Shown here in pieces: positions 2,938-56,312 of a stretch of 64,000 nucleotides of DNA (position 1 is the stretch's first letter; every line of letters begins with the position of its first letter). The DNA comes from an uncultured Clostridia bacterium. GTDB taxonomy: Bacteria; Bacillota; Clostridia; Oscillospirales; Ruminococcaceae. The notes below the pieces were generated by a model, which saw nothing but the letters and a program-made list of their open reading frames with translations, did no database searches and had not been told where the DNA came from. Location of the stretch: contig CAMMMX010000010.1 in NCBI GenBank assembly GCA_946498095.1, positions 1 through 64,000 of the forward strand, in the 5' to 3' direction. Position numbers and translations under genes: made by a program.

Positions 2938-2996
2938 GGAAGGGGAGTCATTTTAGATGCAACCTCCGACACGAGAACCTTGTTCGGACAAGTCAG

Positions 2997-3251
2997 GCCC
3001 CCCGGCAAAGCCGGGGGCTTGAGTAAGCCCTAGAAGGGCATCGTACCGGCAAGCCTCTCAAGAGGCACTGAAAAGATCTACCACTTGCATCACTTGCCCC
3101 ACAACCCGTAAACGGGCCTTTGCGTACTAACACAGCTTTTCTTATGTAGCAAAATTGCTGTTTATATCTCGCTTCGCTCAGTACTTGAATCTAATGTTTA
3201 TTTACTCTCCCCAGCCGAGCTGGGGGTTCTTCTTGTGCTAAAGCATTTAAA
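2997..3251 (-). mobile_element. Structured repeat, copy 1 (non-autonomous IS200/IS605- or HEARO-like element)
   Basis: On the minus strand this repeat begins TTTAAATGCTTTAG (3251-3238) and ends in a C5-GGC-TTT-GCC-G5 hairpin near 2998. It matches the copy at 56046-56291, which lies in opposite orientation, almost base for base: I see a 9-base indel near the start and about five substitutions over some 230 bases. Both ends are strong palindromes, and the interior has several small GC stem-loops. There is no open reading frame. This fits a non-autonomous element or the RNA part of an IS605-type (IscB/TnpB) element. It starts directly behind the tRNA-Pro terminator, sharing its T-run. The family name is not certain. 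Confidence 0.7.
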
Positions 3252-3286
3252 AAGAAAAAAGTCTGAACGCGAACTGCATTCAGACT
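3249..3286 (-). terminator. Intrinsic terminator of tRNA-Pro
   Basis: On the minus strand, AGTCTGAA pairs with TTCAGACT, the stem extends inward by about three pairs, and TTTTTTCTTTTT follows. It sits 5 bases past the tRNA 3' end. The last bases of its T-run coincide with the first bases of the structured repeat. Confidence 0.85.
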
Positions 3287-3291
3287 CGATA

Positions 3292-3368
3292 TGGTCGAGG
3301 TGACAGGACTTGAACCTGCGGCCTCTGCGTCCCGAACGCAGCGCTCTACCAAACTGAGCCACACCTCG
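3292..3368 (-). tRNA. tRNA-Pro (anticodon CGG)
   Basis: The minus strand folds as a full cloverleaf. The acceptor stem is CGAGGTG/CACCTCG, the D-arm GCTC/GAGC, the anticodon stem CTGCG/CGCAG with loop TTCGGGA (anticodon CGG), and the T-arm GCAGG-TTCAAGT-CCTGT. The discriminator base is A and the CCA end is encoded at 3294-3292. It has its own promoter and terminator. The accessory region begins just past its 3' end, a usual integration site, but I found no duplicated tRNA 3' end in the window. Confidence 0.95.
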
Positions 3369-3390: not shown

Positions 3391-3419
3391 ATTATACTAC
3401 GATAGAAAGGGAATGTCAA
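3391..3419 (-). promoter_or_regulatory. Consensus promoter of tRNA-Pro
   Basis: The minus strand has TTGACA (3419-3414), a 17-base spacer and TATAAT (3396-3391), a perfect sigma-A promoter. It lies about 23 bases upstream of the mature tRNA 5' end, as expected for a stable-RNA gene. Confidence 0.9.
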
Positions 3420-56016: not shown

Positions 56017-56044
56017 AAAGGAGCCGTCCACCGGCTCCTTTCCT
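56017..56044 (+). terminator. Intrinsic terminator after the acyltransferase
   Basis: AAAGGAGCCG pairs with CGGCTCCTTT around a 5-base TCCAC loop, 23 bases past the stop. The structured repeat begins two bases later, as in copy 1, where it directly follows the tRNA-Pro terminator. Confidence 0.88.
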
Positions 56045-56045
56045 G

Positions 56046-56291
56046 TTTAAATGCTTTAGAACCCCCAGCTCGGCTGTGGAGAGTAAATAAACATTAGATT
56101 CAAGTACCGAGCGAAGCGAGATATAAACAGCAATTTTGCTACATAAGAAAAGCTGTGTTAGTACGCAAAGGCCCGTTTACGGGTTGTGGGGCAAGTGATG
56201 CAAGTGGTAGATCTTTTCAGTGCCTCTTGAGAGGCTTGCCGGTACGATGCCCTTCTAGGGCTTCCTCAAACCCCCGGCTTTGCCGGGGGGC
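56046..56291 (+). mobile_element. Structured repeat, copy 2 (inverted relative to copy 1)
   Basis: This copy runs in the plus direction from TTTAAATGCTTTAG to a terminal CCCCCGGC-TTT-GCCGGGGG hairpin (56271-56289). Conserved stem-loops with both copies agreeing are CCCG-TTTA-CGGG (56172-56183), GCCTC-TTGA-GAGGC (56222-56235), GCCCT-TCT-AGGGC (56249-56261) and AGCAA-TT-TTGCT near 56132. The first hairpin is CCCCCAGC-TCG-GCTGTGG, imperfect in this copy. No protein is encoded. An IS200/IS605-related non-autonomous element or a HEARO/omegaRNA-like RNA are the best guesses. On the minus strand, the end hairpin lies just past the rhamnosidase stop and could serve as its terminator. Confidence 0.7.
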
Positions 56292-56312
56292 ATAACTTCA
56301 GACTTTCTACAG

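Follow-up and report, generated by a model that had tools for sequence, protein, structure and literature searches.

The repeat that occupies about 56051..56297 of the 64,000-nucleotide stretch of clostridial DNA analysed here (the window) is a protein-less derivative of a tnpA-only element of the IS200 group, that is, a PATE or ends-only MITE. It has probably been moved in trans by the TnpA of sister elements into the T-rich stretch behind intrinsic terminators, and both the repeat and the whole IS200 group land almost always about 9 bases behind a terminator hairpin. Terminators are computed predictions throughout. Protein-less IS200/IS605 derivatives are already known; among them the repeat represents a new family of wide distribution.

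Copies of the repeat and their IS200 ancestry

The window holds two copies, 95% identical over the span given in a sequence-only reading that had pointed them out. Copy 1 (~247 bp, about 56051..56297) lies on the plus strand and copy 2 (~256 bp, about 2991..3246) on the minus strand; their true ends are a little wider than the limits first proposed (56046-56291 and 2997-3251). The differences between them are mostly single bases, as had been described, to which one 9-base gap must be added: copy 1 lacks CACAAGAAG after CTTTAG. Copies start right after TTAA and end at TAACT or TGACT. The TTAA (56047..56050, plus strand, for copy 1) is found at the left junction of every copy in this genome and would be the end of the target; the boundaries come from comparison of copies rather than from an empty site in this genome, and the precise joining base is uncertain by a few nucleotides. 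Neither copy is covered by an ORF or gene, in keeping with the initial description of the repeat as protein-less. Copy 1 has an acyltransferase gene upstream and, on its other side, an alpha-L-rhamnosidase gene that converges with it; copy 2 sits behind tRNA-Pro(CGG).

A search of the repeat's own genome found eight near-full copies, two in the window and six elsewhere (~247-256 bp, 93-98% identity), together with at least three half copies at contig ends, for a total of at least 11 copies counted from flanks. Such copy number and identity put the repeat far beyond chance, and the half copies at contig ends imply that the repeat itself interrupted the assembly. Phage and plasmid copies were also sought, and partial or diverged matches only were found. 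One copy (C33:3234-3472) is devoid of the right-end hairpin, its homology stopping after GCTTGACTC; aberrant excision or deletion is a possible cause. At another locus (C2:41141-41168) the right-end palindrome AGTCATGCCCCCGGCAAAGCCGGGGGGCATGACT stands solo, with no other part of the element.

Homology to IS200-type elements covers the right-hand ~130 bases of the repeat, which correspond to the tail of tnpA, the 3' region and the right-end hairpin. It is seen with elements of its own genome (contig C23), with those of other genera and with E. coli IS200C, where alignment shows the same arrangement of these three parts. This homology bears out the earlier proposal that the repeat is the remnant of an IS200/IS605-family element whose protein has been lost. 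The layout is left end, short unique middle, tnpA 3' tail, structured 3' region and right end. The transposase gene is absent, the ends are homologous to those of TnpA-bearing insertion sequences of the same group, and near-terminal palindromes are present at both ends (the covarying helices 1 and 5, see below) without terminal inverted repeats. Full-length copies with tnpA, tnpB or iscB had been suggested as something to look for in other genomes, and tnpA-only parents were indeed found in relatives; they carry a Y1 TnpA of the IS200 equivalog and no tnpB. In profile searches, the TnpA of a relative matches PF01797 at 5e-41 and NF033573 transpos_IS200. The near-complete genome of one relative (G050) contains 13 identical intact tnpA-only elements that represent the whole parent, in the order left hairpin, tnpA, 3' region with hairpins, and right-end hairpin.

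The repeat's own genome has an IS200-kind Y1 transposase as fragments and a pseudogene, and further occurrences of the repeat's right end lie beside these fragments, as well as at several contig ends that mark an unassembled insertion sequence. Because no intact tnpA is readable in this draft genome, we infer the present-day helper TnpA. Behind a decayed tnpA copy on contig C39 (locus L024, about 1300-1600) there is a cobalamin-riboswitch-like sequence. The structured stretch from the tnpA stop to the right end (CCCGTTTACGGG, a GC hairpin, and the CCTTATAGG hairpin) is common to E. coli IS200C and clostridial relatives (L182/L181).

Within its family, the Gemmiger/Pygmaiobacter/Faecalibacterium-like Oscillospiraceae, some 20 or more genera have full-length relatives of the repeat (70-79% identity), with database records from Gemmiger, Pygmaiobacter, Anaeromassilibacillus, Anaerotruncus and Faecalibacterium-like genomes. 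A matching TnpA is present in 18 of 21 genomes with the repeat versus 67 of 227 without it (P-value = 6e-7; hand tally of listed rows for genomes searched with both queries). Such co-occurrence would fit mobilisation in trans by TnpA. One relative (G041, locus L055, ~1470-1530) has a minimal element of ~50 bases, in which the left-end start TATGCTTTAGCG is fused to the right-end hairpin and TCATGACT; it too lies directly behind a terminator.

The insertion address behind predicted terminators

Copy 1 follows the rho-independent terminator hairpin GGAGCCG-TCCAC-CGGCTCC of the acyltransferase gene (56020..56038, plus strand), which is outside the element and has its foot 12 nt before the insertion point. 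For copy 2, the target is the terminator of tRNA-Pro (CGG; 3292..3368, minus strand), a hairpin GTCTGAA...TTCAGAC with a T-run (3261..3285, minus strand). A perfect sigma-70 consensus promoter, TTGACA-17-TATAAT, precedes this tRNA gene (3391-3419, minus strand). Throughout the genome, 10 of 10 readable left ends follow a terminator hairpin with a T-run, each a different hairpin. Among relatives of the repeat, 40 of 48 distinct loci have a called terminator in front of the element. The eight uncalled loci include one (L237) that is a tnpA element rather than a MITE; most others show a hairpin by eye, that at L232 being the right end of another insertion sequence, and L218 and L229 have no clear hairpin before the element.

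The same address is seen for elements that carry tnpA: 79 of 89 distinct insertions lie behind a terminator versus 8.1% of control positions from the same loci. For E. coli IS200C, sampled by even spread over the collection, this holds for 14 of 14 distinct sites, including those behind fabF, guaA, creD, ecnB, pgm, emrB, wzzB, carB, potE and plaP. Copies of Salmonella IS200F and copies in Lactobacillus phage LR2 and Enterococcus raffinosus also have the terminator address; in a small control, it was seen neither in four IS605-type copies that carry TnpB nor in one distant element from Vibrio. In some cases (L131 right flank, L160, L232) the place of the terminator is taken by another IS200-type element, whose right-end hairpin immediately precedes the copy. 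An alternative raised at the outset, that the repeat could be the recurrent terminator of one gene family, does not fit: the terminators differ in sequence and serve many unrelated genes, and the repeat is an insertion behind them. Transposition of IS1541, an enteric relative of IS200, is reported to have a loss-of-antigen effect in Yersinia pestis (cited in PMC2806898). The terminator preference is thus probably not absolute, and the rule probably has exceptions.

The spacing is narrow. Counted from the hairpin's last G-C pair, the insertion point lies at a median distance of 9 nt (IQR 7-11), and a hairpin lies no more than 16 nt from the insertion at 60 of 64 sites (94%) versus 3.7% of controls, taken as positions ending in TT. 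The elements' own right-end hairpin is 8-9 nt from the element end, matching the target spacing. Orientation is fixed, in the same direction as the terminator. One exact empty site was found, for E. coli IS200C only and from lambdoid phages: Lambda_ev058 carries IS200C behind ren, and in phage lambda J02459 the flanks are joined uninterrupted (200/200 identical). For the repeat's own type, an empty site was sought across species of one genus, and in the genera tried the flanks were too diverged to give a junction-spanning match.

Conserved stems and rival explanations

The sequence-only reading had counted at least six small stems in the repeat and a palindrome at each end. Over 32 relatives, five stems covary, namely the three short-loop stems it had named and both end palindromes: the left-end hairpin CCCCCAGCTCGGCTGTGG (56062..56079, helix 1), the hairpin GCCCG-TTTA-CGGGT (56171..56184), which is homologous to the tnpA 3' end (codons ...DPFTGSK) or its 3' region, the two 3'-region hairpins GCCTC-TTGA-GAGGC (56222..56235, helix 3) and GCCCT-TCT-AGGGC (56249..56261, helix 4), and the right-end hairpin CCCCCGGC-TTT-GCCGGGGG (56271..56289, helix 5; foot ~8 nt before the element end), all on the plus strand. 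The other stems, in the variable middle, were not upheld. The five stems are paired in 95.5% of cells, and pairing drops to 37-55% in slid controls. Compensatory changes, whose absence had been named as evidence against a structured element, are present in all five, with 66 compensatory cells versus 26 in shuffles (0 of 500 shuffles reach 66). Non-Watson-Crick pairs on the top strand are G.T rather than A.C at 49:16, and this excess indicates that the top strand is the one that folds. Covariation and G.T bias fit RNA just as well as single-stranded DNA on which a Y1 transposase acts. The z-scores of the fold are modest (RNA -2.2, DNA -2.4).

One could read these stems as a solo HEARO or omegaRNA, a guide acting in trans with TnpB or IscB, as was originally suggested. 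The IS200/IS605 ancestry, the several hairpins of the 3' region, which extends to the right end and so occupies the place of omegaRNAs, and the compensatory changes on the top strand would suit it. However, the recommended comparison with Rfam HEARO (RF02033) gave no match by cmscan even at E<=10, and no Rfam family reached its gathering score; the own genome has no TnpB by PF01385 or PF07282; and tnpA-only parents, E. coli IS200C included, keep the same 3' region. Moreover, no promoter was found within the repeat, and this together with its place behind terminators does not indicate a transcribed guide. We therefore consider a guide RNA very improbable. HEARO identity as such is rejected on the absent covariance match, and a TnpB omegaRNA element on the lack of TnpB both in cis and, by the two Pfam models, in the own genome. 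The best Rfam match of the repeat is RF00627 P15, a Pseudomonas sRNA (56208-56289, plus strand; 20.6 bits against a cut-off of 70), and this weak match raises the question whether IS200-type right ends are present among the sRNAs described so far. A conserved transcribed RNA, co-opted by the host or encoded by the element as a regulator (for example, of tnpA) and only incidentally mobile, is unlikely, if somewhat less so than a guide. About 70-79% conservation over about 20 genera with compensatory changes would agree with it, and IS200 does yield a structured 5' tnpA RNA (PMC12594629), but single-stranded DNA read by a Y1 transposase predicts the same hairpins and G.T bias, no promoter was found, the post-terminator placement keeps the element silent, and copies lie behind unrelated genes.

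The address might also arise purely from selection, if harmful insertions elsewhere were lost. The region behind terminators is a safe place, and IS200 is over-represented between convergent gene pairs (PMC9208149); selection against insertions within genes could add to the pattern. Yet fixed spacing and a single orientation make selection alone insufficient, as does the excess of hairpins over controls. Near-identical recent copies (13 in G050, 9 in G275) also follow the address, whereas TnpB-bearing IS605-type relatives did not in the four cases examined. As the whole explanation, selection is about as doubtful as a transcribed RNA, or slightly more so. The same target preference is known for bacterial-C introns (PMC8919778), and one may ask whether the repeat is a degenerate group IIC intron; this is hardly credible given its homology to IS200 ends and the tnpA 3' region. 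Rfam scans of the repeat contained no group II intron family, and the candidate was rejected.

Proposed mechanism and relation to known systems

Overall, we favour movement of the repeat by a Y1 TnpA of sister IS200-type elements. This enzyme would excise the repeat as single-stranded DNA via its end hairpins and insert it, without target duplication, into the T-rich stretch behind an intrinsic terminator and in the terminator's direction. Most likely, TnpA accepts the terminator (hairpin, ~9 T-rich nt, cut) because this layout imitates that of its own right end (hairpin, 8-9 nt, cut). In a possible alternative, coupled to transcription, terminators would expose the T-rich non-template strand. 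Extended to the whole IS200 group, classical enteric IS200 included, the proposal is that targets are picked by DNA shape, with hairpin and T-run standing in for the right end and joining ~9 nt behind; at this breadth we lean towards it by a small degree only.

Known Y1 transposases of the IS200/IS605 family use a target of 4-5 bases, such as TTGAT, and to our knowledge no hairpin-shaped target has been described for them. A strict terminator address would be the first, parallel to that of group IIC introns. IS200 is among the most widespread insertion sequences and long seemed silent and harmless; insertion strictly behind intrinsic terminators would explain this appearance. If this is true, intrinsic terminators serve as insertion sites of the IS200 group in several phyla, and the harmless spread of non-coding derivatives is explained. 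In the literature we found no description of IS200 insertion behind terminators; coverage of subscription reviews was thin, and the novelty of this point is uncertain. In genome analysis, the address offers a way of locating IS200-type ends and the non-coding elements derived from them. It also calls for caution, in that multi-hairpin repeats near terminators need a search for the parent before they are read as guide RNAs.

The closest known counterparts are the palindrome-associated transposable elements (PATEs) of Haloquadratum (PMC3119063) and Halanaerobium (PMC7290912). Like these, the repeat has no protein and no terminal inverted repeats, its near-terminal palindromes match an IS200/IS605 element, and TnpA is presumed to act in trans; PATEs make no target duplication, and the repeat may likewise make none, its boundaries being derived from comparison of copies. 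Unlike them, it descends from a tnpA-only IS200-group parent rather than from IS605 with tnpB, keeps a structured 3' region across about 20 genera, and inserts behind terminators, for which we found no description in PATEs. With IS200 sensu stricto (E. coli IS200C, Salmonella IS200F) the family shares the 3' region and right-end plan, a TnpA ~62% identical to that of a family relative, and the terminator address in every sampled copy, but the repeat lacks tnpA and its end sequences differ slightly, TTAA...TGACT versus TTTTTT...TTTATT in IS200. HEARO/IscB and TnpB omegaRNAs likewise form the structured non-coding right end of an IS200/IS605-family element; the repeat differs from them in having no Rfam match and no nuclease in its own genome or parent. 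Group IIC introns also insert immediately after rho-independent terminators (PMC8919778), but they are retroelements with a ribozyme core and a reverse transcriptase and bear no sequence relation to the repeat.
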